Assembly: GCA_030696525.1 (NCBI GenBank)
Contig: JAUYSB010000082.1
Span: forward strand, 1-33,701
Reading direction: 5' to 3'
DNA: 33,701 bases
Source: Hydrogenophaga sp.
GTDB lineage: Bacteria > Pseudomonadota > Gammaproteobacteria > Burkholderiales > Burkholderiaceae_C
Shown: piece by piece, positions 1 through 23,354 of the stretch
Layout of the letters: every line of letters starts with the position of its first letter
How positions within the stretch are numbered: the first letter of the stretch is position 1
Position numbers and translations under genes: made by a program
Notes under the pieces: generated by a model
The model's input: the letters and a program-made list of their open reading frames with translations, nothing else
Databases searched by the model: none
Told to the model about the DNA's origin: nothing

Positions 1-386
1 GGCTTGTCGATCACGGTCTCACCCGCCACGGGGGCCAGCGCGGGAATGATCTGGTTGCCCGGCTCGCCGCGCACAAGAATGCGGCCCATCGGCCCCACAT
101 CGCCGATGCGCAGGCTCGGGTTTCCGCGCAGGCGTTTGGCGGGCGGGCAGTCGTGCAGGTCGGGCGCGTGCGACTCGCGCGTGTGCACCACCATGCCGCC
201 CGCGCGGCGCCAGGCACCCAGCGCGGCCTGGCAGGCCGGCACGATGGCCGCGAGCAACGCCACGTCGTTGCCCAGCGATTCGCCGAACCCGCCGGGCTCG
301 ATGAAGTCGCGCTGCATGTCGATGATGACCAGCGCGGTGTGCGCGATGTCGAAGTCGTAGGCGAAGGGTTGGGCGTCGATCTGCAT
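1..386 (-). CDS. Isochorismatase-fold cysteine hydrolase, partial (C-terminus beyond window start)
   Basis: This reading frame runs off the left edge of the window; 128 full codons are visible. The protein begins [12 protein letters not shown] and carries the isochorismatase-family motif IIDMQRDF, which places the catalytic Asp at residue 23. The last whole residue, Lys128 in VIDK, matches the catalytic Lys of the family. The nucleophilic Cys would lie outside the window. The stretch [10 protein letters not shown] followed by [10 protein letters not shown] closely parallels the biuret-hydrolase-like gene at 1969-2667, so the two are paralogues. It starts 2 bases after the stop of the ABC ATPase and is the last visible gene of the operon. 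By family it should hydrolyse a C-N bond of a small amide or ureide. The substrate cannot be told from the sequence; N-carbamoyl compounds or biuret analogues are plausible. Confidence 0.85.
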
Positions 387-388
387 GC

Positions 389-1972
389 TCAATGTCCTCC
401 GCCCATGTGGGCGCCCAATGTTTGGCGGTTGGCGCTCGCGCCGGGGGTTTCGAACACGATGCGGCCTTCGCTCATGACCACGATACGGTCGGCCAGCTCG
501 AGCAGCTCGTCCAGGTCTTCGCTGATCAGCAGCACCGCCCCGCCCTGCTCGCGCACCAGCAGCAGGCGGCGGTGGATTTCGGCCACGGCCGCGAAGTCCA
601 GACCAAACACCGGGTTGGCCGCGATCAGCACGTTGATGTCGCCGGCCAGCTCGCGCGCCAGCACAGCGCGCTGCACGTTGCCGCCTGAGAGGCTGCGTAT
701 CGGCGCCAGCTCGCCGCGGGTCTTGATGCCGTACTCGGCAATCCACACCCGCGCACGGCGGCGCCACTGGCCAAAACGCAGCCAACCACCCACCGACAGC
801 GGGGCCTGGTCGAAGTCGCGCAGCGCCATGTTCTGCGCCACGCTGAGGTCGCCCACACAGGCATTGCGCAAGGGCTCCTCGGGCAGGCTGCGCACGCGCA
901 GGTGGGCGTTGTCCTTGCGGCGCGCCATGTAGGGCTGGCCCATCACCCGCACCTCGCCGCCCAGGCGGCGGCGCTGGCCGACCAAGGCCTCCACCAGCTC
1001 GCGCTGACCATTGCCCGACACGCCGGCCACGCCCAGGATTTCGCCGCCGCGCACTGACAGGTCCACACCGTGCACGGCGACTGTGCCCCGGTCGCCCATG
1101 GCGCTCAGGCCCTGGACCAACAGATGCGGCGGTCCAACACTCGCTGCCGTGTGCCGAAGCTCGGCGGGGATGGACGCCTCGCCGTTGTCCTTGTCGCCGT
1201 CGGATACCCCCAGGGTGGCTTCGCCCATCATGCGTTGTGCCAGTTGCTGCGGGCTGGTGTTGCGCACATGGCCGTGGAAGACGGCCTTGCCTCGCCGCAG
1301 CACCGTCACGTCGTCGGCAAAGGCGGTCACCTCGCGAAACTTGTGGGTGATGATGAGCACCGAGCATTGCCCCGCCTTTGCGATGGCGCGCACGTGGCCC
1401 AGCACCTCGTCGGCCTCCTGGGGCGTGAGCACCGAGGTCGGCTCGTCCAGGATCAGCAGACGTGGTTTCAGGTAAAGCTGCTTGAGCAGTTCGAGCTTCT
1501 GCTTTTCGCCGGCTGCCAGCTCGGCTGGGCGGGCATCGAGGTCGAGCCGGAAGGGGGTGCTGTCGAGGAACCGCGCCAGCTTCTCGCGCTCGCTGGCCCA
1601 ATTCACCCAGGCCGGCAGGTCGCCACGGGCCAGCAACAGGTTCTCGGCCACTGTCATGCCTGGCGCCAGCGTGAAGTGCTGGTAGACCATGCCTATGCCC
1701 AGATCGCGCGCCACGGTCGGATTGGGGATGGCCTGCTCGCGGCCGTCCACCATCACACTGCCGCCATCGGCTTCCTGGTAACCGGCCACACACTTGACCA
1801 GGGTGCTTTTGCCGGCGCCGTTTTCGCCCAGCAACGCGTGCACCGTGCCAGGCTCCACACGCAAATTCACCGAATCCAGTGCGGTGAAGTCGCCGAAGAC
1901 CTTGGTCAGGTTGTAGGTCTCCAGCGCCATGGCGCCGGTCGGCCTCGCATGGGGTTCGACCGGTGCAATCAT
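389..1972 (-). CDS. ABC transporter ATP-binding protein, double-domain, BMP/sugar type
   Basis: This 527-residue cytoplasmic ATPase carries two ABC domains in tandem, as in the RbsA/NupA-like subunits of ribose and BMP-family nucleoside importers. Domain 1 has a full Walker A (GENGAGKST, residues 49-57), a signature LAAGEKQ (152-158) and Walker B LLILDEP (172-178). Domain 2 has an intact signature LSGGNVQR (428-435), but its Walker A is degenerate (GVSGNGQRE, 317-325, no Lys) and its Walker B reads ANP instead of DEP. An asymmetric pair of this kind is usual for the family. The start at 1972 is chosen because it forms an ATGA overlap with the biuH stop; a Met at residue 15 is the alternative. 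It should energise the two permeases at 2676-4681 and work with the BMP binding protein at 4704-5825. Confidence 0.93.
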
Positions 1973-2667
1973 GGCTGGTCCTCCAACGCGGCCATCAGCT
2001 CGCCCGAGGTGGCATGTGCGCCGAACACACCGCCTTGCATGGTGATCATCTTGAGCGCGGCCGCGTGGTTGCCCACATCGGTGGCGGCGGTGCAGTCGGA
2101 CAGCAGCAGGCACTCGAAGCCCCGGTCGTTGGCCTCGCGCATCGTGGTGTGCACACAGACGTCGGTGGTGATGCCGGCCAGGATGAGGTTGCGCACGCCG
2201 CGCAGGTTCAGGATCAGCTCCAGGTCGGTGGCGCAGAAGCTGCCCTTGCCCGGCTTGTCGATCACCACCTCGCCCGGCAGCGGCGCCAGCTCGGGAATGA
2301 TGTCCCAGCCCGGCTCGCCGCGCACCAGGATGCGACCGCAAGGGCCGGCGTCGCCAATGCCCAGGCCGCCCCGACCGATTTGCTGCGAACGCCAGCGTTT
2401 GTTGGCCGGCAGGTCCGACAGATCGGGCCGGTGGCCTTCGCGCGTGTGCATGACCGGGTAACCCAGTGCGCGCAGGCGGGCCATGAGGGTCTGCAGCGGT
2501 GCGATGGGCGCGCGGGTGAGCGATATGTCGTAGCCCATGCTGTCCACGTAGCCACCCACGCCACAGAAGTCGGTCTGCATGTCGATCACCAGCAGTGCGG
2601 TGTTCCCCGGGTGCAGGTCGCCGTTCCACGGCCAGGCATAGGGTTGGGCGTTGACGGTGGTGGGCAT
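1969..2667 (-). CDS. biuH: Biuret amidohydrolase-like cysteine hydrolase
   Basis: This 232-residue protein of the isochorismatase superfamily probably hydrolyses biuret to allophanate and ammonia. The expected triad is present: Asp29 in VIDMQTDF, Lys138 in IDKPG and Cys171 in TTDVCV. From memory of Rhizobium BiuH (Asp36, Lys142, Cys175), the spacing fits if the N-terminus is 7 residues shorter and there is a 3-residue insertion in the loop around residue 100. The stretches [36 protein letters not shown] and MREANDRG look like BiuH rather than nicotinamidase or RutB. It sits between the permease gene (8-base gap) and the ATPase gene (ATGA overlap), so it is embedded in a transporter operon. 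Allophanate hydrolase, the next enzyme in the pathway, is encoded at 10660-12381. A ureidoacrylate or N-carbamoyl amide substrate is the main alternative. Confidence 0.82.
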
Positions 2668-2675
2668 GGTAGAAC

Positions 2676-3596
2676 TCAGCGGGAAGACGACAGCTCGGTC
2701 GGGCTGCCCTTGGCGATCTCACCGGGCCGGCAGGTGAACACCAGGATCAGCAGCGTGAGCGCGTACGGCAAGGTGTTGAACAGGTGGTAGCCCCAGCCCA
2801 TGCCCACGCTCTGCAGGGCCGGGCCGATGGCGCCCGCACCGCCGAACAGCAGTGCTGCGCCCACACAGCGCAACGGGCTCCAACGGGCAAAAATCACCAG
2901 CGCCACCGCGATCAGGCCCTGGCCGCTGGAGATGCCTTCGTTCCAGCTGCCGGGGTAGAACAGGGTGAGCGAGGCGCCACCCAGGCCGGCGATCAGGCCA
3001 CCACCGGCCGTGGCCGCAATGCGTATGCCGTTGACCGAATGGCCCAGGGCGCGGGTGGCCAGGGCCGAATCGCCCGCCAGGCGCACCAGCAGGCCAGCGC
3101 GGCTGCGTTGCAAGGCAAAGTGCAGGGCCACGGCCAGCAGCACGCCGAGCGGCAACAGCGCATTGACTTGCAGGGCGGTCTGCAACGCGGGCGAGTCGCT
3201 CCAGGCGCCCAGCGGCAGGGCCGGAATTTGCGGTGCCTGCGGCTGGATCAGTGGCTTGCCCAGGTAGAAGGCCAGGCCGGTGCCCAGCAGCATGAGCGCG
3301 ATGCCGGTGGCCACGTCGTTGACACGGTCCAGTGAACACAGCAGGCCATGCAAGGTGGCCAAAGCCGCACCCGCCAAGGCCCCCACCAGCACGCCCACCC
3401 AGGGCGAGCCGCTGAGATAGGCACCACCAAAGGCAGCCATCGCCGAGAGCACCAGCACCCCCTCCAGGCCCAGGTTGATGCGGCCCGATTTTTCGGTCAG
3501 GCACTCGCCCAGGCTCACGAACAGAAAGGGCACGCCCACCCGCAGGGCGCCGCCGAGGATGCCGGCCAGCAGGCTGAGGAGGTCATCAGCGCTCAT
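2676..3596 (-). CDS. ABC transporter permease (BMP/nucleoside-type), second subunit
   Basis: A 306-residue, very hydrophobic protein with roughly eight to ten predicted membrane spans. The N-terminal segment ending [16 protein letters not shown] is the hallmark of the YufQ/NupQ-like permease that pairs with BMP-family binding proteins. The conserved GINLGLEG-like turn lies near residue 40. Its start overlaps the stop of the upstream permease as ATGA (3593-3596), which supports translational coupling and fixes the start. It is 8 bases upstream of biuH. Together with the permease at 3593-4681 it should form the heterodimeric inner-membrane channel. Substrates of this family include nucleosides and nucleobases; here the neighbouring hydrolase suggests a ureide. 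Confidence 0.92.
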
Positions 3597-4681
3597 GCGA
3601 TCTTGTCTCCCATGCCCAGTTGCACCGCTGTCGGTTCGCGGCGCGGGAGCAGCAGCGCACGCCAGTCCCAGCGGCGCTCACGCAGCGCTTCGCTGGCGAG
3701 GATGAGCACAAAGGCCAGGCCTTGCAACACCAGCACCGAGGCATCGGGCAGGCCCAGGCGGCGCTGCAGCAGGCTGCCCGCCGCGCCAAAGCCACCAAAC
3801 AGGATGGCCACCGGGATGATGGCAATCGGGTGGTGGCGCGCCATGAAGGACACCAGGATGCCGGCGTAGCCGTAGCCGGCGATCAGCGAGGCGTTGGCGC
3901 TGGTGTGCACCGCTACCACCTCCACCGCACCCGCCAGCCCGGCTGCCGCGCCGCCCAGGGCGCAGGCCAGCAACACCAGGCGCGAGGCGGGCAAACCCAC
4001 CAGTTGCGCAGCACGAAGGTTGCCTCCCACCACGGCCACCGCAAAACCCGAGGCGGTGAAACGCAGCCAGATGCCCAGACCCACGCAAGCCAGCACCCCA
4101 AGCGCCAGACCCCAGTGGATGTCCGAGCCCATGATGCCGCCGATGCGCAATGCCTCGTCCAGCGGCAAAGTGGAGGGCTTGTTGAGGCTGGCCGGGTCGC
4201 GCAGCGGGCCTTCCACCGCGTGTTTGAACAGGCCAATGGCCACGTAGGCCAGCAGCAGGCTGCTGATGGTTTCGTTGATGCCCCGGTAGCGGCGCAGGGC
4301 ACCGGCCACCACCGTCCAACCAGCACCGGCCAACGCCCCCGCAAGACACACCATGGCCGTGCCCAGCACGTTCTGCGGCAGCACCAGCACATAGGGCAAG
4401 GCCGCGCACGCCAGGCCGCCGAGCACCAGAGCGCCCTCGGCCCCGATCACCACCAGGCCGGCCCGCGCGGGGATGGCCACACACAGCGCGGTCAGCATCA
4501 GCGGGGCGGCACGTTGCAAGGTGTTCTGCCACGAGAACCAATCGCCGAAGGCACCCTTGAACAAGGTCACCCACACGTCCACCGGGCTCACGCCCGCGAA
4601 CCAGACGAAAACCCCGAACAGCAGCAGCGCGGCCGCGATGGCCAGCACCGGCAGGGCGATGGACTTGAACAAATCGTTCAT
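3593..4681 (-). CDS. ABC transporter permease (BMP/nucleoside-type), first subunit
   Basis: A 362-residue integral membrane protein of the YufP/NupP-like permease type. It has an N-terminal membrane anchor (LPVLAIAAALLLFGVFVWFA) and the family stretch around residues 55-85 that includes LQRAAPLMLTALCVAIPARAG and VVIGAEGALVLGG. The region RGINETISSLLLAYVAIG near residue 150 is typical of these permeases. It follows the binding-protein gene after a 22-base gap and overlaps the second permease by 4 bases. It should pair with that subunit and with the ATPase at 389-1972. Nothing in it identifies the substrate. Confidence 0.92.
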   Translation of the reverse strand: MNDLFKSIALPVLAIAAALLLFGVFVWFAGVSPVDVWVTLFKGAFGDWFSWQNTLQRAAPLMLTALCVAIPARAGLVVIGAEGALVLGGLACAALPYVLVLPQNVLGTAMVCLAGALAGAGWTVVAGALRRYRGINETISSLLLAYVAIGLFKHAVEGPLRDPASLNKPSTLPLDEALRIGGIMGSDIHWGLALGVLACVGLGIWLRFTASGFAVAVVGGNLRAAQLVGLPASRLVLLACALGGAAAGLAGAVEVVAVHTSANASLIAGYGYAGILVSFMARHHPIAIIPVAILFGGFGAAGSLLQRRLGLPDASVLVLQGLAFVLILASEALRERRWDWRALLLPRREPTAVQLGMGDKIA

Positions 4682-4703
4682 GGCCGGGCGCGGGCAAGCC
4701 AGC

Positions 4704-5825
4704 TCAGATCGAACCGATCACACCTTCCACCAGGTAGTTCATCTTTTCGAGTTCGAGGTCGGTCTGCTTGAGCGTCTTGCCGGCTGCGATGACGGTGTTG
4801 CCCTTGTTGTCCTTGAGCGGGCCCTTGAAGATGTCGAACGTGCCCGCGATCATCTTGGCCTTGATGTCATCGGCGTTCTTCTTGGCGGCCTCGCTCACGG
4901 CCGGGCCGTAGGCCGACATCTTGACAAAACCCTCCTTGAGCCCGCCGCGCAGGAAGTTGGGGTGCGGCTTGCCGGTCTGCGCCGCCTCGATGATGGTCTT
5001 GTAGGCGGTGAGCCAGTTCCACTCGGCGCCGGTCAGGTAGGTCTGGGGCGCGAGCTTGGCCTGGCTGGCGTGGTAGCCGCAGACCATCTTGCCGCGCTTG
5101 GCCGCCGTCTCAACGATGACCTTGGGTCCGTCCACGTGCATGGTGAAGACGTCACAGCCCTGGTCGGCCAGGCTGTTGGTGGCCTCGGCCTCCTTCACGG
5201 CCATGGACCAGTCGCCGGTGAAGATCACGCTGCAGGTGATGCCGGGCTTGACCGAACGCGCCCCCATCAAAAAGGCGTTGATGTTGCGCAGCACCTGCGG
5301 GATGGGCTTGGCCGCCACGAACGCGATCTTGTTCGACTTGGTCATGTGGCCGGCGACCACGCCATTGAGGTACTGGCATTCGTCGATGTAGCCGAAGTAG
5401 CTGCCCACACTTTTGGGGTGTTTGCCTTCGGTCCACATGCCGCCGCAGTGGGCAAATCGCACCTCGGGGTTCTTGGCTGCCAGGGCCAGGATGTGCGGAT
5501 CGAAGTAACCGAAGGAGGTGGGGAACAGCAGCTTGGCGCCGTCCTGCGCGATCATGCCCGTCATGGTCTTTTGCACGGCCGCCGTCTCGGGCACGTTCTC
5601 TTCTTCCACCACCTTGATGCCGGGCATCTTGCGCAACTCGGCCGCCGCCTGGGCCTGGGCCTGGTTGTAGCCGTAGTCGTCGCGCGGGCCCACATAGATC
5701 ACGCCCACGGTCAGCGGCGTCTGGGCATTCGCCAGCAGGCCCCAGCTGCCCAGCGCCGTGGTGGCGCCCAGGGCGGTGAGCGATTTCATGGTGTCGCGGC
5801 GGTTGGGGCGAAATCCTGCGTTCAT
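4704..5825 (-). CDS. BMP-family (PnrA-like) periplasmic substrate-binding protein
   Basis: A 373-residue exported protein of the basic-membrane-protein/PnrA family. The N-terminus carries a twin-arginine-like signal (NRRDTMKSLTALGATTAL) and a probable cleavage after LLANAQ. The mature part opens LTVGVIYVGPRDDYGYNQAQ, the usual first strand and loop of this fold, and continues with KLLFPTSFGYFDP and VRFAHCGG. The chosen start keeps the Arg pair in the signal; an internal Met at residue 13 would lose it. It is the first gene of the downstream unit, about 60 bases below the promoter element at 5887-5923. BMP proteins usually bind nucleosides or purines. From memory, a BMP-type protein (AtzT) is described in the extended atz region of Pseudomonas sp. 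ADP, so a nitrogen heterocycle or ureide is plausible. Confidence 0.93.
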   Translation of the reverse strand: MNAGFRPNRRDTMKSLTALGATTALGSWGLLANAQTPLTVGVIYVGPRDDYGYNQAQAQAAAELRKMPGIKVVEEENVPETAAVQKTMTGMIAQDGAKLLFPTSFGYFDPHILALAAKNPEVRFAHCGGMWTEGKHPKSVGSYFGYIDECQYLNGVVAGHMTKSNKIAFVAAKPIPQVLRNINAFLMGARSVKPGITCSVIFTGDWSMAVKEAEATNSLADQGCDVFTMHVDGPKVIVETAAKRGKMVCGYHASQAKLAPQTYLTGAEWNWLTAYKTIIEAAQTGKPHPNFLRGGLKEGFVKMSAYGPAVSEAAKKNADDIKAKMIAGTFDIFKGPLKDNKGNTVIAAGKTLKQTDLELEKMNYLVEGVIGSI

Positions 5826-5886
5826 GGTGGGGCTCCAGCGGTGGGTTGATCAACAAAGGTGCACCAGCGCACCGTTTGGTTATCCA

Positions 5887-5923
5887 ATCTTGGATACAAG
5901 ATGCAATGCATAAAACGTGCCTG
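5887..5923 (-). promoter_or_regulatory. Sigma-54-like promoter plus palindromic operator for the BMP/biuH operon
   Basis: On the minus strand, 5923-5907 reads CAGGCACGTTTTATGCA. This has the invariant GG and GC of a -24/-12 promoter separated by 10 bases, with three departures from the full sigma-54 consensus. Four bases downstream lies the perfect 6-base-arm palindrome ATCTTG-N4-CAAGAT (5887-5902). The expected start point falls inside or next to the palindrome, so a protein bound there could block initiation. The same composite, with identical spacing, lies before atzF at 12395-12431. The palindrome resembles GntR-family operators, but no GntR gene is in the window. Element spacing is seen; function is inferred. 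Confidence 0.6.
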
Positions 5924-5931
5924 TCTGGCCA

Positions 5932-6318
5932 TCAGGTCTCGGGCATCAGGCTCACGTGGGCGGCCACCACACGCCAGCCCTCGGGCAGGCGCAGCCAGGT
6001 CTGGCTCTGGCGGCCCACGCGGGTGCTGCCCTCGCGCACGAACTCGATGTTCGTGGTGGCGAAATCGCGCCCGTAGGTGGTGATGGCGGTGCGCACAATG
6101 GTGCGCGCCAGCCCCACCGCGGGGCGTGCGTTGCGGAAGGCGCGGATCGCCTCCATGCCGTAGAGGTTTTCCCCCGCGCCATAACGCAGGGTGTGCGGGC
6201 TGTCCCAGAACAGCTCGTCGAGCACGTCCACCAGGTTGTTCACCAGCGCGTCCTCGTAGCGGGCGAACACCGCCGTGACTTCGGCCAGTACGTCGGGGTC
6301 GTTGATGCTGTGGTTCAT
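5932..6318 (-). CDS. atzH: AtzH-like DUF3225 protein (decarboxylating amidohydrolase)
   Basis: A 128-residue protein with an NTF2/SnoaL-like cone fold. Typical segments are [20 protein letters not shown] near the N-terminus, then [16 protein letters not shown] and FRNARP, and a C-terminal strand ending [11 protein letters not shown]. This matches the DUF3225 family whose member AtzH of Pseudomonas sp. ADP is reported to convert 1,3-dicarboxyurea to allophanate. The start at 6318 gives an ATGA overlap with the atzE stop and an expected family length; a longer upstream frame is rejected for that reason. It is the last gene of the upstream unit, directly after atzE and atzG. Its likely job is to feed the allophanate hydrolase encoded at 10660-12381. 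Confidence 0.85.
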
Positions 6319-7745
6319 GAGAACAAGGGCTCCTGGGGGGCAAGGCGGGCGGTGGTGACGCCACGGGTTTCCAACTCGGCCGCCACCCGCAGCGCGAGGT
6401 CTTCGCGCCAGGGCGCGGTGATCACCTGCACGCCCAAAGGCAGGTGGTGGCCGGGCGACCACACGGGCACCGCCACCACCGGCAGGCCGATGCACGAGAT
6501 GGGCTGGGTGAGCACACCCATGTGCGGGCGCAGCGGGTGGCGCTGGCCGCCGATGTCCAGCCACTCGCTGCCAATAGGCGTGGCCGCCGTGGGCGTGGCC
6601 GGGGCCAGCAACACGTCAAAACGTTCGAACAGCCGGGCCGCCGCCTGGGCATAGGCGTGGCGCACACGCTGGGCCCGGGCCACCCAGGCGGCCGGCAGCA
6701 GGGCGCCGGCCAGAAAACGGTCGCGCGACAGCGGTTCGAAATCACCGGCGCGGCGGCGCAAGTCGTCCAGGTGCAAGGCGCCGCCTTCCGAATTGGTGAT
6801 CAGAAACGCGGCCGCCCGGCCCGCTTCGACCAGCGGCAGCTCGACCTGCTCGTGGGCGTCCAGCGCCCGGGCCACCTGGGCCAGCGCGGCCAGGGCCTGC
6901 GGCTGGGCATTGGTCTGGAAATGGCCGCCCAGCACGCCGATGCGCAGCCCGGTGGCACCCCGGTCCAGCAGCGGCGTCACCGCCTCGACGGCGCGCTGTG
7001 CGCAGCCCGGGTCACGCTGTGGGCCTGCGCCTTCTGGGCCTTGCATCAGGTCGTAGCTCAACGCCAGGTCGCGCACCGAGCGCGCCAGCGGGCCGAGGTG
7101 GTCGAGGCTGGACACAAAAGGGTAGCTGCCGGTGCGGGGCAGACGGCCAAAGGTGGGCTTGAGTCCCAGCACACCACACAGCGAGGCCGGCACGCGGATG
7201 GAGCCGTTGGTGTCCGAACCCAGGGTGAGCGGTACCTGCCCTGCTGCCACCGCTGCGCCGCTGCCGCCCGACGAGCCGCCCGCGATGCGGCTGAGGTCGT
7301 GCGGGTTGTGGCAGGCGCCCTGGTGGCTGTTCTCGGTGGTGAAGCCATAGGCGTACTCGTCCATGTTGAGTGCGCCCACCAGCACCGCGCCGGCCGCCTC
7401 CAGCCGCTGCACCAGCAGGGCGTCGGCGCGCGCGGGTGGCGCCTCGCGCTCGATCTTGGAGCCGGCCAGCGTGGCCAGGCCCGCGACGTCGAACAGGTTC
7501 TTGACGGCGAAGGGCACCCCCAGCAGCGGCAGCGTGGCCAAACGCCCACGCTGGTCGTCGATGGTGGCCGCACGCGCCAGCGCGCGTTCCGTGGTGACGG
7601 CCGTGAAGGCGTTGACCTGCGCATCGCTGCGGCCGATGTGGCGCAGGCTGGCGCCCACCAGTTCGGTGGCACTGCATTCGCCGCTGCGCACGGCCTGGGC
7701 CATGGCCACGGCGTCACCGAGCAACAGCTGTTCGGCCGCGCTCAT
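6315..7745 (-). CDS. atzE: AtzE-like amidase (1-carboxybiuret hydrolase catalytic subunit)
   Basis: A 476-residue amidase-signature enzyme. The Ser-cisSer-Lys triad is visible: Lys82 in PFAVKNLFD, cis-Ser158 in [10 protein letters not shown] and nucleophile Ser182 in [10 protein letters not shown]. The 24-residue spacing between the two serines is standard for the family. The start at 7745 overlaps the stop of the small DUF4089 gene as ATGA. The tight pairing with that GatC-like subunit and with atzH is the diagnostic AtzE-G-H arrangement. In Pseudomonas sp. ADP the AtzE-AtzG heterotetramer hydrolyses 1-carboxybiuret to 1,3-dicarboxyurea. Family members outside s-triazine clusters may act on other ureides, so the exact substrate here is not certain. 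Confidence 0.87.
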
Positions 7746-7963
7746 GCCAGGCCCCCGCCGTCGGCGTGGCGCAGCGGCGCCACCGGCACAAAGGCCATGG
7801 CCGGTTCGGTGCTGGCGTCGAGATCGACGGCCTGCACCACGTCCGCAAACTGTGCGGCCAGGGCGAAGTAGCGCAACACACCGGCGCGGTGGGCTGGGTC
7901 CAGCGGCAGGTCCAGCGCAGACGCGGCGGCGTCCACATAGGTCTCGATCTGGGCCGGCGTCAT
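7742..7963 (-). CDS. atzG: AtzG-like small subunit (DUF4089, GatC-like)
   Basis: A 73-residue acidic protein beginning MTPAQIETYVDAAASALDL, with a second helix LRYFALAAQFADVVQAVDL. This is the short DUF4089 pattern of AtzG, which wraps the amidase AtzE in the way GatC wraps GatA and stabilises it. It ends with PAMAFVPVAPLRHADGGG, a tail like the GatC linker. Both ends are fixed by ATGA overlaps, with the ATPase stop at 7960-7963 and with the atzE start at 7742-7745, so translation of the three genes is probably coupled. It has no catalytic residues of its own. Confidence 0.85.
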   Translation of the reverse strand: MTPAQIETYVDAAASALDLPLDPAHRAGVLRYFALAAQFADVVQAVDLDASTEPAMAFVPVAPLRHADGGGLA

Positions 7964-8781
7964 CGACGCACCTCGCGCTGGAAGATCTCCAGGCTGAGCT
8001 TCTTGGTCGCCACAAAGGACGGCTCGGACAAGGTGGCCACGGTGCGCGGGCGGGCGTCGTCGTAGCTCAGGATTTCGGCCACGCGGGTGGGACGTTTGGT
8101 CAGCAGCAGCACCTGGTCGGCGAGGTAGACCGCTTCCTCCAGGTCGTGCGAGACCAGCAGCATGGTGGTGCCGGTCTGCATGAACACCTCCTGCAGCTTC
8201 TCGCGGATGAACAGCGTCATCTCGAAGTCCAGCGCCGAGAAAGGTTCGTCGAGGAAGAGCACCTCGGGGCCGGGTGCCAGCGCACGCATGATGGAGGCGG
8301 TCTGCTGCTGCCCGCCCGAGAGTTCGTAGGGGTAGCGGTTCAGGTCGAACTTGACGTCGAAACTCGCCACCAGCTCGGCCATGCGGCGGTCCACCTCGGC
8401 CTTGCTGCGCCCTTCGAGCTTGAGCGGGTAGGCGATGTTGTCGATGGTGCGCATCCAAGGGAACATGGCCTCGCGGTAGTTCTGGAACACGTAGCCGATC
8501 TTGGTGTCCTTGAGGCTTTTGCCATCGAACAGGATCTCGCCCGCGTCGATGGGAATCAGACCCGCGATCATGTTGATCAGCGTGCTTTTGCCGCAGCCGT
8601 TGGGCCCGAACACCGAGACGATCTTGTGTTTGGGGATGTCGAGGTCGAAGTGTTCGTACAGCGGCCAGCCGGCGAAGTACTTGGTCAGACCGCGGATGGT
8701 GATGTGCGTGCCGGTGGGGCCGGGCTGGAAGGCCGGTGCGGGCACGTCGGCAAACACGGGGGCGTTCAGGACTTCGGTCAT
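7960..8781 (-). CDS. ABC transporter ATP-binding protein, nitrate/taurine type
   Basis: A 273-residue single-domain ATPase of the SsuB/TauB/NrtD type. Walker A is GPNGCGKST (residues 59-67), the signature is LSGGQQQ (154-160), Walker B is VLFLDEP (174-180) and the switch His follows in LLVSHDLEEA. The Q-loop stretch GYVFQNYREAMFPW is typical of this subfamily. A Pro/Ala-rich N-terminal extension of about 25 residues precedes the ABC domain. The start at 8781 overlaps the permease stop as ATGA; a much longer open frame upstream is permease DNA read in another frame. It works with the permease at 8778-9620 and the binding protein at 9626-10621. Confidence 0.93.
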   Translation of the reverse strand: MTEVLNAPVFADVPAPAFQPGPTGTHITIRGLTKYFAGWPLYEHFDLDIPKHKIVSVFGPNGCGKSTLINMIAGLIPIDAGEILFDGKSLKDTKIGYVFQNYREAMFPWMRTIDNIAYPLKLEGRSKAEVDRRMAELVASFDVKFDLNRYPYELSGGQQQTASIMRALAPGPEVLFLDEPFSALDFEMTLFIREKLQEVFMQTGTTMLLVSHDLEEAVYLADQVLLLTKRPTRVAEILSYDDARPRTVATLSEPSFVATKKLSLEIFQREVRR

Positions 8782-9620
8782 CGTCCACTCCAATGCACGA
8801 TGCGGCGCTCGATCAGCAGGAACAGCACGTTGAGTACGTAGCCGAGTGCGCCGGCCGCCAGGATGGACGCGTACATGTCCTTCACGTTCATGACCTGCTG
8901 GGCGTTGATGATGCGGTTGCCCAGGCCGCTGTCGGCGCCGATGAACATTTCGGCCACGATGACAATGACCAGGGCCATGGACACCGCCGAGCGCAGGCCC
9001 ACGAAACTGGGCTGCAGGCTCTCCCACAACAAGACGTCGCGGAACACCTGCCAGCGTGTGGCCCCCATGACCTTGGCCGCCATCACCCGCTGCTTGCGCG
9101 CGTTGATGACGCCGTAAGCGCTGTTGAACACCACGATGAGCAGGGCGCCAAAGGCGGCGATGGCGACCTTGTTGATGTCGGACACGCCGAAGATCATGAG
9201 GAACAGCGGGATCAGCGCCGACGACGGTGTGGAGCGGAAGAAGTCGATCAGGAACTCCACGCTGCGGTAGGCCTTTTCGTTGCTGCCCAGCAGCACGCCC
9301 AGCGGCATGCCCAGTGCGGCGGCGATCAGAAAGGCCTGCACGGTGCGCCAGACGGTGACGGCGGAGTCGCCCAGCAGCGGGCCGCCGGCCAGGCCGTTGA
9401 TCAGTGCGCCCAGGGCGGCCAGCGGCGGCGGCAACAGGATGGGCTTGATGAAGCCCAGCCGCACCACGAGGTCCCAGAGGATGAACAGCAGCACCGGCCC
9501 CACGAAGGGCAGGGCCCGGCTCCAGTCGAAGGCGCGCACGGCGACCGGCCTTTCGCCGGCCACCGCCGGTGGCGTCCAGGGTTTGCCCGTCTCGGCGGGC
9601 AGGGCTGTGGGCGTGCTCAT
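8778..9620 (-). CDS. ABC transporter permease, nitrate/taurine (SsuC/TauC) type
   Basis: A 280-residue inner-membrane permease of the BPD_transp_1 family. About six spans are predicted, starting with ALPFVGPVLLFILWDLVV (residues 36-53). The cytoplasmic EAA-like loop is at residues 179-200 (VMAAKVMGATRWQVF), with the conserved Gly that docks on the ATPase. An N-terminal Pro-rich cytoplasmic tail of about 30 residues precedes the first span. The gene begins 5 bases after the binding-protein stop and overlaps the ATPase start. With those two proteins it forms a complete importer, probably for a ureide or related small nitrogen compound, given the flanking amidohydrolases. Confidence 0.92.
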   Translation of the reverse strand: MSTPTALPAETGKPWTPPAVAGERPVAVRAFDWSRALPFVGPVLLFILWDLVVRLGFIKPILLPPPLAALGALINGLAGGPLLGDSAVTVWRTVQAFLIAAALGMPLGVLLGSNEKAYRSVEFLIDFFRSTPSSALIPLFLMIFGVSDINKVAIAAFGALLIVVFNSAYGVINARKQRVMAAKVMGATRWQVFRDVLLWESLQPSFVGLRSAVSMALVIVIVAEMFIGADSGLGNRIINAQQVMNVKDMYASILAAGALGYVLNVLFLLIERRIVHWSGR

Positions 9621-9625
9621 GGCAC

Positions 9626-10621
9626 TCAGCCTTTGTAGAGCATGGAGTCGACCATCAGGCGCGAGGTAAAGATGCCCTTTTCAGAGAACAGGTCGAAGAA
9701 CTTCTGGAAGTGGGCGATGTCGGCCGGCGTGAACTCGCTGTACATCGTGTAGGCGGCCAGTGGCACCTCGCCGGTCAGCGGGCCCTCGATGGCGGTGTAG
9801 CCCTTGAGGTACTGGCGCGCATCGGCGGCCTTGGTGCGCACCAGCTCCACGCCCTTGCCATACGCGGCCACAAAGCGCTTGGCGGCCTCGGGGTTGGCCT
9901 TGATGTAGCTGGACGTGAGCGAGGCCGAGCCGCCAAACCACGGCGCCATCGGATCGCCCAGGATGTAGCGCGCGATCACGCCCGCCTCCAGCATGCGGGT
10001 GGCACCGTTGAGGCGGCCTATGGTGCCGGTGGGCTCCAGTGTGTAGCAGCCGTCCACCTGGCCCGCCGCCAGCGCCGCCACGTGTTGGCCGATGGGCAGC
10101 TCGACCACCGTGGCACCGGTGGCGCCGGCGCGCTCCAGCACGGTTTTGGCCAGGGTCACGTTCTGTATGCCAGGGCCGGAGGCGACCCGCTTGCCCTTGA
10201 GGTCGGCGATGGTCTTGGCGGTGCTGGCGGTGGGCACCAGCACCTGGTCAAGCACGTTCTTGGCGTTGCTCGGGTTGCAGCAGAATATCTTGAAGGTGCC
10301 GGGCGCGGCAAGCTCGCCGATGGCGATGTTGGCCGAGCCGGTGCCGTTGGCGCTGGCATCGCAGCGACCGGCCAGCATGGCCTCCATGATCTGCTGCGCA
10401 CCCGCGTAACGCTGCACCTCCACGTCAAGGCCGGCGGCCTTGAAGTGGCCCAACTCGACCGCGGAATAAAAGGGCAGACCGGCCGCGATGGGCCAGTAGC
10501 CCACGCGTATCTTGGTGGCGCTCTGCGCACGCACCAGGGCGGGCGCGGCCAGGGCCGCCACCGCAAGGCCTGAAGCCTGCAACATGTGGCGCCGCGACGG
10601 GGAAGGCTTGGTGGATGACAT
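9626..10621 (-). CDS. ABC transporter substrate-binding protein, nitrate/taurine (NMT1/SsuA-like) type
   Basis: A 331-residue periplasmic protein with a good twin-arginine signal (SRRHMLQASGLAVAALAAP, cleavage probably after LVRAQ). The mature part begins KIRVGYWPIAAGLPFYSAVELGHF, the NMT1/SsuA-like opening. It has the usual DVEVQRYAGAQQIMEAMLAGRCDA segment that forms one side of the ligand cleft. It lies 38 bases downstream of atzF and 5 bases upstream of its permease. A Tat signal suggests folding before export, perhaps with a cofactor or to avoid misfolding. The ligand is not evident; the operon suggests a ureide or biuret-like compound. Confidence 0.92.
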   Translation of the reverse strand: MSSTKPSPSRRHMLQASGLAVAALAAPALVRAQSATKIRVGYWPIAAGLPFYSAVELGHFKAAGLDVEVQRYAGAQQIMEAMLAGRCDASANGTGSANIAIGELAAPGTFKIFCCNPSNAKNVLDQVLVPTASTAKTIADLKGKRVASGPGIQNVTLAKTVLERAGATGATVVELPIGQHVAALAAGQVDGCYTLEPTGTIGRLNGATRMLEAGVIARYILGDPMAPWFGGSASLTSSYIKANPEAAKRFVAAYGKGVELVRTKAADARQYLKGYTAIEGPLTGEVPLAAYTMYSEFTPADIAHFQKFFDLFSEKGIFTSRLMVDSMLYKG

Positions 10622-10659
10622 GACAGACTCCTTGAGGTTGATGGGCTAGAACAGCGGTT

Positions 10660-12381
10660 TCACGGGGTGGTAAGGGCTTGGCTTGCCTTGATCTCGGCGA
10701 TGTAGGCGCGCCAGCCGCCCAGGTGGCTGATGTCCCGCGCGTCAGCCAAGGCCCAGGGCTCGCAGATGAAGCCTTGCACCGTGGTGCCGTCGGTCAGGTT
10801 CAGCGTCCCTATGCCCAGCGGGGCAGGAATCAGGGCCACGAAGCTTCCGAATTGGCTTGCCGGCATCGACCAGACCTCAACAGCGATGGCGGTGCCCTGC
10901 CCCGGCGCCACCCTCAGCAAGCCTGGTTTGGGCGGCACCGTGCCGGGCAGCGCAAACAGCCGGTAATCGGCCGCGGTGTGCGTCTTGCGCAGCAAGACCG
11001 CGCTGCGTTCGGTCAGCTGGCTGTTGAGCGGCATGCCCGAGAGGTGCGCGCCCACCACTGCCACCTCCACCATCGGCTCAGCGGCTGGAAGTGGCAACGC
11101 CTGCAAAGGCGGCAAAGGCGCACCGGTGGCGCCCTGCGTGAGGCCTGTGCTGTGGTGGTAGCGCTGAGCCAGGTCGAGCAACGCCCAGTCGCTGCCAGCC
11201 GGTGCGATCAACGTGACGCCAAACGGCAAGCCATCGTCGCGCAGGCAACTTGGCACAGCGATGGCGGCGTGGTCGAGCAGATTCACAAAATTGGTGTACT
11301 CGCCCAGCTCACGGTTCAGGCGCACCGGGTCGGCCAGCATGGCGTCGATGGTGGGGAAGGTGGGCGCTGTGGGCACCACCAACACATCGATGTGTTCCCA
11401 CAACGGCGCCACACGCTGTGCCAGCGCGCGCAGTTGTGTCTGTGCGTCGAACACATCGGCGGCGGTGTACTGTTTCGCGCGAGCGAGGATGCCGCGCACC
11501 GGCTCCACGACCTCGCTCTCATGGGCATCGAAGAAGGTCCGTATCGCGGCGTAGCGCTCAGCCACGAGGGCGCTGTCGTAGAGCAGGCAAGCGACCTCGC
11601 TGAGTGGGCTGTAGTCGATGGGCACGGCGACGCCGCCCAGGGCCTCCATCAACAACACCGAGTGCGCAAAGGCGGCCGCGTTCATGCTGTCACCAAAGAA
11701 GCACAACTCGCGGGGCACCCCAAACCTGAACCCTTGCGTCCACATGCTGCCTCGCAAAGGCAAGTCGCGCGAATAGGGGTCTTCAGCGTCAAACCCCTTT
11801 GTGGCCTGGAAAACCCGCGCCGCTGTGCCGACGGTACGCGCGAATATTGAGACGCAGTCAACGCTTTGGGCGGCTGGTAGAACGCCATGCGTGCTCAGCA
11901 GGCCCTTGCTGGGCTTGAAGCCGACGATGTTGTTGAGTCCGGCAGGCACGCGGCCAGAGCCTGCGGTGTCCGTGCCCAGGGCGAAGTCCACTTGGCCGGT
12001 GGCCACCACCACGGCCGAGCCCGAACTGGAGCCGCCCGACACACGGGTGTGGTCAAACGTGTTGGGGACAGCACCAAATGGCGAGCGCGTGCCATTGAGT
12101 CCACAGGCAAACTGGTCGAGGTTGGTTTTGCCGACCAGACACGCACCAGCATCGAGCAGGCGGCGCACCACACTGGCGTGATCAGTGGGTGTGTAAGCAA
12201 ACGCAGGGCAGGCCGCCGTGGTGGGCACGCCGGCCACGTCGATGTTGTCTTTGACGGCACATTTCAAACCCGCCAGAACACCGTCGGTGCGCCTGATCAC
12301 TGGCTCATGCAGGTGCGTGATCCACGCAGCAGCCAGCGGGTCGGGTGTTGGGCTCGAAGAGGCAGCGGCGGTGGGAACCAT
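10660..12381 (-). CDS. atzF: Allophanate hydrolase
   Basis: A 573-residue two-domain enzyme that converts allophanate to ammonia and CO2. The N-terminal amidase domain has Lys44 (CAVKDNID), cis-Ser118 (SGGSSSGSA) and nucleophile Ser142 (DTAGSGRVPA). The Lys-Ser-Ser spacings of 74 and 24 equal those remembered for AtzF of Pseudomonas sp. ADP. The C-terminal domain (about residues 436-565) has VGAHLSGMPLN with His446, matching the His needed for the decarboxylating step, and ends GFICEPWALADARDISHLGGWRAY. The start at 12381 has an AGGA ribosome site 9 bases upstream and sits just below the promoter-operator element. The longer frame to 12522 is rejected because it would read through that element. 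As the first gene of the unit it provides the shared last step. Confidence 0.93.
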   Translation of the reverse strand: MVPTAAASSSPTPDPLAAAWITHLHEPVIRRTDGVLAGLKCAVKDNIDVAGVPTTAACPAFAYTPTDHASVVRRLLDAGACLVGKTNLDQFACGLNGTRSPFGAVPNTFDHTRVSGGSSSGSAVVVATGQVDFALGTDTAGSGRVPAGLNNIVGFKPSKGLLSTHGVLPAAQSVDCVSIFARTVGTAARVFQATKGFDAEDPYSRDLPLRGSMWTQGFRFGVPRELCFFGDSMNAAAFAHSVLLMEALGGVAVPIDYSPLSEVACLLYDSALVAERYAAIRTFFDAHESEVVEPVRGILARAKQYTAADVFDAQTQLRALAQRVAPLWEHIDVLVVPTAPTFPTIDAMLADPVRLNRELGEYTNFVNLLDHAAIAVPSCLRDDGLPFGVTLIAPAGSDWALLDLAQRYHHSTGLTQGATGAPLPPLQALPLPAAEPMVEVAVVGAHLSGMPLNSQLTERSAVLLRKTHTAADYRLFALPGTVPPKPGLLRVAPGQGTAIAVEVWSMPASQFGSFVALIPAPLGIGTLNLTDGTTVQGFICEPWALADARDISHLGGWRAYIAEIKASQALTTP

Positions 12382-12394
12382 TTTTGTGCGTCCT

Positions 12395-12431
12395 ATCTTG
12401 GATACAAGAACGGATGCAAAAGCTGTGCCAA
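12395..12431 (-). promoter_or_regulatory. Sigma-54-like promoter plus palindromic operator for the atzF operon
   Basis: On the minus strand, 12431-12415 reads TTGGCACAGCTTTTGCA. Against the sigma-54 consensus YTGGCACGRNNNTTGCW it differs at only one base. Four bases further on is the near-perfect palindrome at 12395-12410, identical in 15 of 16 bases to the one at 5887-5902. The palindrome ends 13 bases upstream of the atzF ATG, next to the AGGA ribosome site. Sigma-54 control fits nitrogen-limited (NtrC-type) expression of a nitrogen-scavenging locus. The match is seen; use of the promoter is inferred. Confidence 0.7.
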
Positions 12432-12770: not shown

Positions 12771-13685
12771 TCACTTGGGCGGCCGAAAGCCCTGCAGGCG
12801 TTCCAACAAAAACTCGGCAAAGGCCTCGGCAGCCGGCGGCACGGCGCGCACCGTTGAACGGTACACACACACCTGGCGGATGACCTCCGGGTCTTTCACG
12901 CGGCGCATCACCAGGCCCAAGGGCTGGGCCACCACGCCCACATAGGCGGGCGCCAGCGTGGCGGCCAAGCCCTGGGCCGCGATGCCCAGCGCCGTGGAAA
13001 TGTTGTCCACGATGTCCACTGGGTGGATGCGGGTGCCTTCAGGGGCATTGGCGTGCATCTGCGCCACGCTGCGTTCGTGGTCGCGTCCGGCCGCCACCAG
13101 GGTCGCATCGCGCAAATCCTGCCAACGCAGCGACCTGCGCCTGGCCAGGGGATGATCCGGCGCGCACCACAGCACCCACGGGCTGTCGAACGCAGGCGTG
13201 GCCAGCACCTGGCCCAGACCAGGTCGGTCGGGCCCCACGGCCAGGTCGATGTCGCCCGCAGACACCCGGTCCACAAGAGCGTCCACCGGGGTATCGCGGA
13301 TGCGGATCACCACCTTGGGCCGCTCCTCGTTGAAGGCCCGCACGATGGCGGGCAACACCGCACTGGCCAGCACAAGGGGCGCGCCCACACGCACCACGCC
13401 CGAGGCGCGGTTGCGCACGTCGGCCGCCGCCGCTTCGGCCAGATGCACATGGCGAAGCGCGGTCTGTACCGCCGCCAAAAAGTCCCGGCCGGCGCTGGAG
13501 AGATCCACCCGCCGGGTGCTGCGGTCAAACACCCTGAAGCCGATGGTCGATTCCATCTCGGCGATGAGCTGGCTCACGGCCGACGACGACAAACCCATCT
13601 GCTCACCTGCCGACGCGAAGCCGCGCAGATCGGCCACGGCCACAAAGGCTTCGAACTGTCGCAGGGTCAGGCGGGTCAGTGGCAT
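12771..13685 (-). CDS. LysR-family transcriptional regulator of the hpa-like operon
   Basis: A 304-residue LysR protein. The winged-helix DNA-binding domain covers residues 4-65 ([26 protein letters not shown], then [17 protein letters not shown] and [15 protein letters not shown]). The effector domain starts near residue 94 ([20 protein letters not shown]) and has the segment [14 protein letters not shown]. It is transcribed away from hpaH, with 115 bases between the two start codons. That arrangement is the classical one for LysR activators of the adjacent catabolic operon, with a pathway compound as inducer. The E. coli hpa operon uses HpaR of the MarR family, so this is a different regulatory solution. 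Confidence 0.92.
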
Positions 13686-13800
13686 GGTTTGATTATCTAC
13701 CTCAGCTTACGAGTAGCCGATTATTCATTGATTGTGGTTTGGAGTGTGTCCCACGAGACTGCGGCCTTCGCCAACGCATCCACACCGCAACGGAGACACC
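13686..13800. promoter_or_regulatory. Divergent control region between the LysR gene and hpaH
   Basis: This 115-base region is AT-richer than its flanks. It contains the short inverted arms CTAC (13697-13700) and GTAG (13713-13716) around CTCAGCTTACGAG, and a direct repeat of GATTAT at 13691 and 13719, 28 bases apart. It should hold the LysR binding site and both promoters. No clean T-N11-A site or -35/-10 pair is convincing by eye. The hpaH ribosome site CGGAG lies 5 bases before the GTG start. Confidence 0.4.
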
Positions 13801-14607
13801 GTGAACCTGAGCCCCCAGCTCCACGCGCAACTGGCCGTCCAGCTGCACAACGCACAACGCAGCCGCGTGCAGGTCGAGCAGTTCTCGAAACTGCACCCCC
13901 AGATGGACATCGAAGACAGCTACGCCATCCAGCGCGCCTGGATGGACCTCTGCCTGGCCGAAGGGCGGCGCGTCATCGGCCACAAGATCGGCCTGACCTC
14001 GCGCGCCATGCAGCTGGCCTCGCAGATCACCGAGCCCGACCACGGCACGCTGCTGGACGACATGCTGCTGCGCGACGGCGCCGAGATTCCCACCAGCCGC
14101 TTCATCCTGCCGCGCTTCGAGGTGGAACTGGCCTTCATCCTGGCCAAGCCGCTGCAAGGCCCGAACGTGAGCCTGTTCGACGTGCTCAACGCCACCGATT
14201 TTGTGGTGCCGGCGCTGGAGCTGATCGACGCCCGCATCGAACAGTTCGATCGCCACACCAAAGCGCCGCGCAAGGTGCTGGACACCATCGCCGACAACGC
14301 GGCCAACGGTGCCATCGTGCTGGGCGGGCGCCCCATGCGACCCGACGCGGTGGACTGGCGCTGGGCTGGCGCCCTGCTGTTCAAGAACGGCGTGATCGAA
14401 GAGTCCGGCCTGGGTGCGGCCGTGCTCAACCACCCGGGCAATGGCGTGGCCTGGCTGGCCAATCGGCTGGCCTTGCACGGCGAATCGCTGCAGGCCGGCG
14501 AAATCGTGCTGGGCGGCTCCTTCACGCGGCCCGTGGCCTGCGCGGCGGGCGACGTGTTCCACGCCGACTACGGTCCGCTGGGCTCCATCTCGGCGAGGTT
14601 TGTGTGA
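13801..14607 (+). CDS. hpaH: 2-oxohept-4-ene-1,7-dioate hydratase
   Basis: A 268-residue enzyme of the MhpD/HpcG hydratase family that adds water to 2-oxohept-4-ene-1,7-dioate in the homoprotocatechuate meta pathway. The Mg-binding acids are Glu107 and Glu109 (RFEVELAF) and Glu140 (ALELIDARI), one residue off the positions remembered for HpcG (106, 108, 139). [12 protein letters not shown] at residues 60-71 and the TDFVVPALE stretch are also typical. The start is GTG at 13801, with GGAG upstream and the family's usual N-terminus; an upstream ATG at 13732 would add a 23-residue Pro/Arg-rich tail and is rejected. The stop overlaps the hpaI start (TGATG). It is the first gene of the operon. Confidence 0.92.
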
Positions 14608-15410
14608 TGACCACGCCCGACAACCCCTTCAAGCGGGCCCTGCAAGCGGGCCGCCGACAGATCGGCCTGTGGCTGGGCCTGGCCGACCCGTACGCGGCCG
14701 AAATCTGCGCCGGCTGCGGCTTCGACTGGGTGCTGATCGATGGCGAACACGCGCCCAACGACCTGCGCCAGATGCTGAGCACCTTGCAGGCGCTGGCACC
14801 TTACCCCGTGCACCCGGTGGTGCGCATCCCGGAAGGCAACCCCACGCTGATCAAGCAGGTGCTGGAGATCGGCGCCACCACACTGCTGGTGCCCATGGTG
14901 GAATCGGCCGAACAGGCCCGCGCCCTGGTGCGCGCCATGCGCTACCCGCCCGAAGGCACACGCGGCGTGGGCAGCGGCCTGGCCCGCTCATCGCGCTGGA
15001 ACAGCCACCCCCGCTACCTGCACGAGGCCAACGAGCGTGTGTGCCTGCTGGTGCAGGTGGAGACGGCCTCGGCCGTGGCGCAGCTGGCCGACATCGCAGC
15101 GGTCGAGGGCGTGGACGGCGTGTTCATCGGCCCGGCCGACCTCTCGGCCTCCATGGGCCACCTGGGCCAGCCGACCCACCCCGAGGTGCGCACCGCCATC
15201 GAACAGGCCTTGGCCACCATCCTGGCCGCCGGCAAGGCGCCGGGCATCCTGTGCACCGACGAAACCCTGGCACGCCACTACATCGCGCTGGGTGCCCGTT
15301 TTGTGGCGGTGGGCGTGGACACCACGCTGCTGACGCAGTCGGCACGTGCCCTCGCTGCCCGCTTTCAAGATGACCAGCCGGCGTCAGCCAAGACACCCAG
15401 CGGGTATTGA
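14607..15410 (+). CDS. hpaI: 4-hydroxy-2-oxoheptanedioate aldolase
   Basis: A 267-residue class II aldolase of the HpcH/HpaI family. It cleaves 4-hydroxy-2-oxoheptane-1,7-dioate to pyruvate and succinate semialdehyde. The catalytic and metal residues are His48 (IDGEHAPND), Arg73 (VVRIPEGNP), Glu152 (QVETASAV) and Asp178 ([11 protein letters not shown]), all offset by 3 from the E. coli HpaI numbering (45, 70, 149, 175). The start shares one base with the hpaH stop. A much longer open frame running through from 13023 is an accident of GC-rich sequence. The C-terminus is a little long ([11 protein letters not shown]). The aldehyde product could be used by the dehydrogenase at 20804-22249. Confidence 0.94.
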
Positions 15411-15417
15411 ACGTCAG

Positions 15418-16425: not shown

Positions 16426-16440
16426 TCGAGAACACACCCC

Positions 16441-17916: not shown

Positions 17917-17944
17917 CAAGCTCTTCCATCACAAAGGACACACC

Positions 17945-19770: not shown

Positions 19771-19811
19771 TCCGCCATCCCTTTCACCCAACACAACCGG
19801 AGACCTTCCCC

Positions 19812-20795: not shown

Positions 20796-20803
20796 TCGCC
20801 ACC

Positions 20804-23270: not shown

Positions 23271-23354
23271 GCTTGTCTCCTGGATCGGCTGAGTTGGAAC
23301 AGGTCAATTGTTGTTTCATTCAGACGTGGGCACAATGGCGCCAGCGGCAAAACA

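Follow-up and report, generated by a model that had tools for sequence, protein, structure and literature searches.

Contig JAUYSB010000082.1 of Hydrogenophaga sp. (NCBI GenBank assembly GCA_030696525.1), analysed over its full 33,701 nucleotides (hereafter the window), carries on its minus strand an operon-like gene string in which two ATP-binding cassette (ABC) importers are combined with the allophanate hydrolase AtzF, the AtzG, AtzE and AtzH proteins, the biuret hydrolase BiuH and the beginning of the triuret hydrolase TrtA. The window is the entire contig C306 of a draft genome (G000) of 3.97 Mb in 309 contigs, which is 80.2% complete and 2.66% contaminated, and the operon is therefore truncated at the contig edge. 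In the minus-strand order, the genes are as follows, SBP denoting a solute-binding protein.

10660–12381, minus strand: atzF, allophanate hydrolase of 573 amino acids; NCBIfam allophanate hydrolase, score 768, cut-off 511.
9626–10621, minus strand: NMT1/SsuA-type SBP of importer 1 (SBP 1); Pfam PF09084, with the nearest solved structures, 3qsl and 3e4r, distant.
8778–9620, minus strand: permease of importer 1; PF00528.
7960–8781, minus strand: ATPase of importer 1; PF00005.
7742–7963, minus strand: atzG, small subunit, with 4-nt overlaps with its neighbours; PF13318 AtzG-like, best Protein Data Bank (PDB) match AtzG 6c62_C.
6315–7745, minus strand: atzE, AtzE-family amidohydrolase; score 685, cut-off 461; best PDB match AtzE 6c62, 566 bits.
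5932–6318, minus strand: atzH (HpxZ in NCBIfam); Pfam AtzH-like, with AtzH 6bjt among the PDB matches.
4704–5825, minus strand: BMP-family SBP of importer 2; PF02608, nearest solved structure AtzT 6pi5 (E 2e-59).
3593–4681, minus strand: permease A of importer 2; PF02653.
2676–3596, minus strand: permease B of importer 2; PF02653.
1969–2667, minus strand: biuH, biuret hydrolase; NF050097, 410 bits against 370; 6azo, E 4e-112.
389–1930, minus strand: double-domain ATPase of importer 2; best family NF047930, score below the cut-off.
1–386, minus strand: trtA, triuret hydrolase, first ~128 codons, truncated at the contig edge; 187 bits against TrtA structures 6xix/6xj4 and 106–117 against BiuH structures.

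The intergenic gaps within the string range from −4 to 38 nt, and the sole larger gap, of 106 nt, lies between atzH and the BMP gene. From the importer 1 permease through the ATPase, atzG and atzE to atzH, each junction is a 4-nt overlap, as is that of the two BMP permeases. Gene content and order had been proposed from the letters of the window (the original prediction) and are borne out by profile and PDB matches; the start of a second isochorismatase gene, running from 386 to 1 and off the contig end, went unmentioned there. The string is not due to chance, because the same string recurs in a set of 80 loci, the best 80 of 352 relatives obtained when named genomes were scanned with an SBP 1 alignment. 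These loci are mostly from Comamonadaceae (Variovorax, Polaromonas, Hydrogenophaga, Pseudorhodoferax and Curvibacter).

By its sequence, the biuH product is a biuret hydrolase, which exceeds the curated cut-off and carries the full signature. The catalytic and discriminating positions of BiuH and TrtA were taken from PMC7948467 and PMC5806882; here and below, statements on papers cited by PMC number refer to the sections of those papers available to this analysis. At the 11 compared positions (the triad D36, K142 and C175; F41, K145 and Q215; and the BiuH-type Y47, Y53, S147, D173 and V218), window BiuH reads DFYYKKSDCQV and is identical to 6azo, the structure of BiuH from Rhizobium leguminosarum 3841. 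The full BiuH signature is present in 80 of 86 rows labelled BiuH and the TrtA signature in 47 of 53 rows labelled TrtA, the rows including reference and window sequences and counting the TrtA of G049 twice. All five visible positions of the cut trtA (D24, F29, F35, N41 and K129; DFFNK) are of the TrtA type, F35 and N41 being the two that distinguish it from BiuH. K132, A134, E160, C162, Q202 and I205 of TrtA lie beyond the contig end in the window, and all six are found in the same-genus relative G049. Window AtzE passes the family cut-off, has its partner gene atzG adjacent and is 60% identical to AtzE of Pseudomonas sp. ADP. Window AtzH is over the cut-offs of both PF11533 and NF033625; the names AtzH and HpxZ imply different pathways. 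The AtzF frame (10660–12381) is without the first ~26 positions of the TIGR02713 model, as it also is in G108, G184, G171 and G058.

AtzT binds guanine with an affinity of 110 nM through E165, N218, N220, S97 and the backbone of F98, with a sandwich of Y45 and W194 (PMC6834077). In a check of the pocket numbering, all nine named AtzT residues landed on the expected letters. At positions 45, 97, 98, 165, 169, 194, 218 and 220, AtzT has Y, S, F, E, N, W, N and N, and the window BMP SBP has Y, S, F, Q, N, W, H and D. The aromatic clamp Y45/W194 is retained together with S97 and F98, and the guanine-contacting E165, N218 and N220 are replaced by Q, H and D. The pattern Y-S-F/Y-Q-N-W-H-D is found in all 28 complete biuH-linked BMP SBPs of the order and plasmid sets, two incomplete rows having been excluded from the comparison; Q165 is present in 50 of the 51 BMP SBPs of the 80-locus set. 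Among BMP SBPs without such a neighbour, 15 of 18 have W45 and E165, the rest being L114 on the cut contig of G052 and the G097 paralogues L116 and L117. In four BMP proteins encoded next to a weaker isochorismatase, Y45 and Q165 are present together with S169 and Q218. Triuret (146 Da) is near guanine (151 Da) in size, and the simplest reading of the pocket would be a planar ligand with an altered hydrogen-bond pattern. AlphaFold2 models of both binding proteins were poor, with mean pLDDT (predicted local distance difference test) values of 58.7 and 57.3, and were therefore set aside for fold comparison and ligand prediction.

The BMP SBP is also tightly linked to biuH. In a set of 300 genomes of the order, BiuH is over the cut-off in 31, a BMP SBP of at least 62% identity occurs in 28 (in G153 split over two contigs), and both occur in 27; the exception is G052, with its BMP SBP on a 3-kb contig. 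The co-occurrence in 27 of 28 genomes compares with 2.9 expected (Fisher p 4e-33, with the window genome included and kinship ignored). The BMP unit had been put forward as a candidate biuret importer, and the linkage and the changed pocket support this assignment. There is good reason to regard the BMP unit as a putative dedicated importer of biuret or triuret.

Thirty further regions with biuH over the cut-off were fetched from other genomes. The order permease A–permease B–biuH–ATPase is seen in 26 of them, with another layout in the remaining four (L038, L042, L058, L064), and trtA lies directly 3′ of the BMP ATPase in 21 of these 26 loci. After trtA come atzE-atzH in 8 loci (with atzF between in one) and an AtzH-like gene alone in 4; among the 9 others, atzE-atzH is convergent in L050, atzF-G-E-H lies upstream in L054, and atzF and an AtzH-like gene lie upstream in L053. 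More trtA/atzE/atzH neighbourhoods are found in G118, G157, G005 and G191. The Hydrogenophaga locus L150 has the string atzF, importer 1, atzE, atzH, trtA, gntR, in a genome with no BiuH over the cut-off and no BMP relative of more than 36% identity. There, AtzE would be the enzymatic outlet for the TrtA product. The gene order supports a coupling of TrtA to AtzGEH. TrtA yields carboxybiuret, which has a half-life of ~20 min and decays to biuret, the BiuH substrate, and AtzEG hydrolyses the same TrtA product (PMC7948467); AtzEG yields 1,3-dicarboxyurea, which AtzH converts to allophanate, and AtzF ends the route (PMC7948467, PMC6219798). The convergence on allophanate given in the original prediction is supported. 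However, it had paired each importer with its own amidohydrolase set, whereas one pathway appears to unite BiuH, TrtA and AtzGEH as consecutive or parallel steps, trtA being followed by atzE-atzH in several families.

The sigma-54 −24/−12 consensus is TGGCAC-N5-TTGCW. The window has two sigma-54-like sites, and the same operator stands after each of them.

12415–12430, minus strand: sigma-54 (−24/−12) promoter-like site TGGCACAGCTTTTGCA, upstream of atzF; exact consensus match.
12391–12409, minus strand: operator 1 TCTTGTATCCAAGATAGGA, with the core CTTGTATCCAAG starting 6 nt past the −12 element; core repeated at operator 2.
5907–5922, minus strand: second sigma-54-like site AGGCACGTTTTATGCA, upstream of the BMP gene; 2 mismatches, GG and GC kept.
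5883–5901, minus strand: operator 2, with the same core as operator 1; found by core search.

The first site is the only exact consensus match in the window (0.05 expected) and ends 34 nt before the atzF start. In the 80-locus set, 75 loci have sufficient sequence; a site with at most one mismatch is present in 59 of these, and in 1 of 75 inside atzF, used as a control. The second site alone is not significant, with 18 window matches at up to 2 mismatches against 28.8 expected, and is supported by its position and by operator 2. The operator core occurs at two places only in the window with up to one mismatch allowed (0.03 expected), and the pattern TCTTGKAYMCAAGA has no further occurrence in the draft genome of the window. 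An exact match to this pattern is present in 12 of 23 chosen genomes, and all listed places except G158:C141 are on the contig of the operon GntR gene or, in G000, in the window. Sixty-four loci of the 80-locus set have a sigma-54 site with at most one mismatch in the scanned stretch; the operator is found within 2 mismatches in 62 of them and at the window's 6-nt offset in 60, and none of 64 control segments is within 3 mismatches. A looser operator motif occurs 46 times in 76 kb of promoter regions versus 9 times in 1.38 Mb elsewhere. NtrC-like sites, with the consensus TGCACC-N5-GGTGCA, show no excess in the window (6 versus 5.2 expected).

A GntR/FCD relative of the L150 gene is present in all 28 chosen genomes. 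Where its position was compared, the gene lies after trtA (G171, G300, G301), after atzH (G049, G250, G152) or after importer 1 (G108, G184 and a Cupriavidus plasmid); the window genome has it on contig C69, where it follows another trtA. The GntR/FCD protein presumably binds the operator. That the string forms one regulon, as had been proposed, is supported by the operator shared by both sites, with its exact pattern unique to them in the draft genome, and by the recurrence of the GntR/FCD gene with the operon. The LysR gene at 13685–12771 was rejected as the operon regulator: 46 bp separate its start from a divergent hpaH-like gene (13732–14607), and 389 bp lie between its end and atzF. On contig C69, the terminal stretch (G000:C69:43152-44775, L067) holds the final codons of a BMP ATPase together with a complete trtA and the GntR gene, and shares 78% DNA identity with the window end over the shared stretch. 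Both window SBPs are nearer to Variovorax (86% for SBP 1, 89% for the BMP SBP) than to the same-genus genome (77% and 73%). The C69 copy and the Variovorax-like SBPs may reflect transfer, duplication, mis-binning or another strain in the bin.

Importer 1 is seen with different partners. In the order set, SBP 1 of at least 53% identity occurs in 12 genomes, 8 with AtzE and 6 with BiuH; AtzE occurs in 39 of the 300 genomes, 22 of which have BiuH. In the 80-locus set, AtzE follows importer 1 in 71 loci, a few of which carry an inserted cassette in between; the remaining nine comprise seven that end within 2.2 kb of the SBP and two that are cut inside AtzE. A BMP SBP of more than 300 bits is present in 51 of the 80 loci and biuH in 49. 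Of these 49, 15 have trtA next and 33 stop before its position could be judged; in the last, L217, the unit is convergent on the other strand, as in same-genus G049. The partners of importer 1 are just atzF and gntR in G108, G184 and the Cupriavidus plasmid, atzF-atzGEH in G250 and G152, and atzF, BMP and biuH but no atzE in G178 and G158. Importer 1 tracks atzF and the GntR gene more than atzGEH, as the first three of these show. The importer 1 half and the BMP/biuH half thus look like modules joined in this lineage. It is possible that the two importers serve two related substrates.

Other arrangements were seen among the relatives. L152, L166, L172, L179 and L180 have a ~7-kb cassette between the importer 1 ATPase and atzG/atzE, with an opposite-strand amidase and isochorismatase and a third BMP-type importer; the L172 cassette enzymes match PRK08310 and, weakly, RutB/BiuH. 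In L138, on the Enterobacter plasmid pENT-576, atzF-BMP-permeases-formamidase-biuH-ATPase-trtA-GntR lies between two IS1 copies. A biuH relative is present on 180 plasmid records, of which 47 are predicted to be conjugative.

A tree of 51 AtzEs was built with fetched sequences only. In it, AtzE of Pseudomonas sp. ADP is the sister of 11 AtzEs encoded in importer-1 operons of Comamonadaceae and their relatives; the 12 have 100/100 support, and identity over 115 blastp rows reaches 75%. This suggests a possible origin of the cyanurate genes of the atrazine plasmid pADP-1.

The window genes probably form a single sigma-54-type operon for scavenging nitrogen from triuret, biuret and the carboxylated intermediates of both. 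When nitrogen is limiting, transcription dependent on sigma-54 would start before atzF and again before the BMP gene, and the GntR/FCD regulator, encoded at the operon 3′ end in relatives, would bind the same operator at both promoters. The BMP importer would take up biuret and/or triuret. TrtA would convert triuret to carboxybiuret and ammonia. Carboxybiuret would then either be converted by AtzGE to 1,3-dicarboxyurea and by AtzH to allophanate, or lose CO2 to give biuret, which BiuH would convert to allophanate; hydrolysis of allophanate by AtzF would be the last step. Importer 1 may bring in a second related compound, triuret or another ureide. In this scheme, the chemistry of TrtA, BiuH, AtzEG, AtzH and AtzF is taken from the literature on homologues, and we infer the importer substrates, the AtzGE flux and the regulator–operator pairing; gene identities (by homology), conservation, linkage, pocket residues and promoter/operator conservation come from this analysis. 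A more specific proposal, with a little under an even chance of being correct, is that the BMP unit is a dedicated biuret/triuret importer derived from a purine importer by rewriting of the base-reading residues with the clamp kept, that AtzGEH takes the place of TrtB in what would be a natural operon for triuret/biuret use, and that this family of operons is the source of the pADP-1 atzGEH genes.

Several observations weigh against these proposals. H218 is present in 6 and D220 in all 15 of the W45/E165 paralogues without biuH, and therefore only Y45 with Q165 separates the two pocket classes. The window trtA is incomplete. Neither atzE nor atzH is found within the fetched stretch in 5 of the 21 trtA loci (L040, L045, L062, L063, L065), and the single AtzE of L037 lies on the opposite strand ~15 kb from trtA. 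Window AtzE groups with those of Variovorax and G264, in a clade apart from ADP AtzE and from the trtA-adjacent AtzEs. No exact operator is present in 11 of the 23 genomes, G049 included, although relaxed forms stand at the promoter in several of these 11. The BMP-side operator is found within 2 mismatches in only 22 of 51 loci, versus 2 of 51 inside the BMP gene, and the second promoter is thus less general. Of 16 genomes or records with importer 1, accompanied by atzF and/or atzGEH, and no adjacent BMP unit, 14 (one of them a plasmid only) have no BiuH/TrtA relative at E ≤ 1e-40, so the importer 1 half does not need triuret chemistry; G323, one of the 14, retains a 108-residue BMP SBP fragment. 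Because BiuH/TrtA is absent there, the importer 1 substrate must be handled in some hosts by AtzF or by AtzEG and unlinked enzymes. G108 and G184 have importer 1 and atzF, and neither AtzE nor full-length urea carboxylase was found in them; the lack of a full-length match rules out urea carboxylase as the explanation of importer 1 with atzF in these two genomes.

The occurrence of importer 1 with atzGEH but without BiuH/TrtA would also fit an independent ureide system, such as one for oxalurate (HpxXYZ-like), that is merely co-regulated with the biuret/triuret half. NCBIfam assigns window AtzH to the oxalurate family HpxZ (210 against a cut-off of 135), which also counts against the triuret/biuret assignment, and importer 1 lies beside GntR and FMN reductase genes in G138 and beside an FMN reductase gene in G237; a monooxygenase, as described for Bordetella clusters, was not recognised in G138 or G237 among the tested open reading frames and open frames. 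However, the steadiest partner of importer 1 is atzF, at 300 bits or more in 77 of the 80 loci (not in L178, L190 and L217), and atzF is not known to have a role in oxalurate use. The sisterhood of the 11 importer-1-operon AtzEs with ADP AtzE, a tested carboxybiuret hydrolase, and the same operator at both window promoters also argue against a separate system, which we consider unlikely. The BMP unit could instead be an ordinary purine or nucleobase importer for general nitrogen supply, as the guanine-binding AtzT (PMC6834077) and the name nucleoside transporter given to such genes in a 2025 nitrifier paper (PMC12625717) would suggest. The change of E165 to Q in every biuH-linked SBP and nearly every one of the 80-locus set, with E kept in most unlinked paralogues, and the lack of any recognised purine-degrading gene in the operon make this quite unlikely.

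Cyanurate use in Pseudomonas sp. ADP involves AtzGEH and AtzF (PMC6219798), and the string could also be a cyanuric acid operon with atzD elsewhere; in G171, an AtzD gene lies at C9:19437, just past the GntR gene. AtzD-family matches are found in 14 of 45 tested genomes. However, there is no AtzD-family match (E ≤ 1e-30) in the 80%-complete window genome or in G049, G264, G138, G237, G250, G152, G178, G108, G184 and G158, and a cyanuric acid operon is very unlikely. The row of trtA, gntR and AtzD-family genes at G171:C9:17971-20528 is a possible bridge to cyanurate use.

Parts of the triuret/biuret operon resemble systems already described. Esquirol 2018 (PMC6219798) shows Comamonadaceae/Burkholderiales clusters of the form atzF-ABC-atzGEH-ABC-amidase, with the same one-strand gene order as in the window; ABC genes separate atzF from atzGEH in about half of the genomes, and ABC transporter and amidase genes follow. 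In its available sections, the amidases are not named BiuH or TrtA, and no substrate, promoter, operator or pocket is described. The operons of Herbaspirillum sp. BH-1 and Rhizobium leguminosarum 3841 (Tassoulas 2020, PMC7948467) unite trtA, biuH and atzF, with carboxybiuret as an intermediate, as here; that pathway has the decarboxylase TrtB, whereas the window has atzGE and atzH for carboxybiuret and two importers. The nitrifier clusters trtA-biuH-(trtB)-atzF with bmpA-nupABC (PMC12625717, 2025) have BMP genes beside biuH, trtA and atzF, as here, but in the available text no second importer or atzGE is described alongside, and the importer is labelled as a nucleoside transporter. The pADP-1 genes atzDGEHF and atzRSTUVW of Pseudomonas sp. 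ADP share atzGEH, atzF, a BMP-type SBP (AtzT) and, as predicted for the window, sigma-54 control with it (PMC6834077). The window differs in that no atzD was found, GntR rather than LysR (AtzR) control is indicated, the pocket is different, and biuH and trtA are added. The statement that a dedicated biuret importer is not well described holds in that no bacterial importer for biuret or triuret was found in the literature searched, the coverage of which is incomplete and leaves priority uncertain; the layout, however, was already in PMC6219798, and BMP genes beside biuH in PMC12625717. What is added here to the printed layout is the gene identities, the likely function, the BMP pocket signature and the shared regulation.

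The rest of the window carries other genes. A divergent LysR gene and an hpa-like set (hydratase HpaH, aldolase HpaI, an FAD oxidase, aldehyde dehydrogenases, an FAA hydrolase and a TctC receptor) occupy 12771–22249. Two further TctC receptors, a sulfatase, LysR and AraC regulators, and Rieske dioxygenase subunits with ferredoxin and reductase (anthranilate AndAc-like, below the cut-off) lie at 22290–33699.

Biuret and triuret enter soils with urea fertiliser. The pocket signature makes a biuret/triuret importer predictable and directly testable. Furthermore, the link between TrtA and AtzGEH, if true, would partly explain why atzGEH is common in bacteria without atzD, a question left open by the 2018 paper (PMC6219798).

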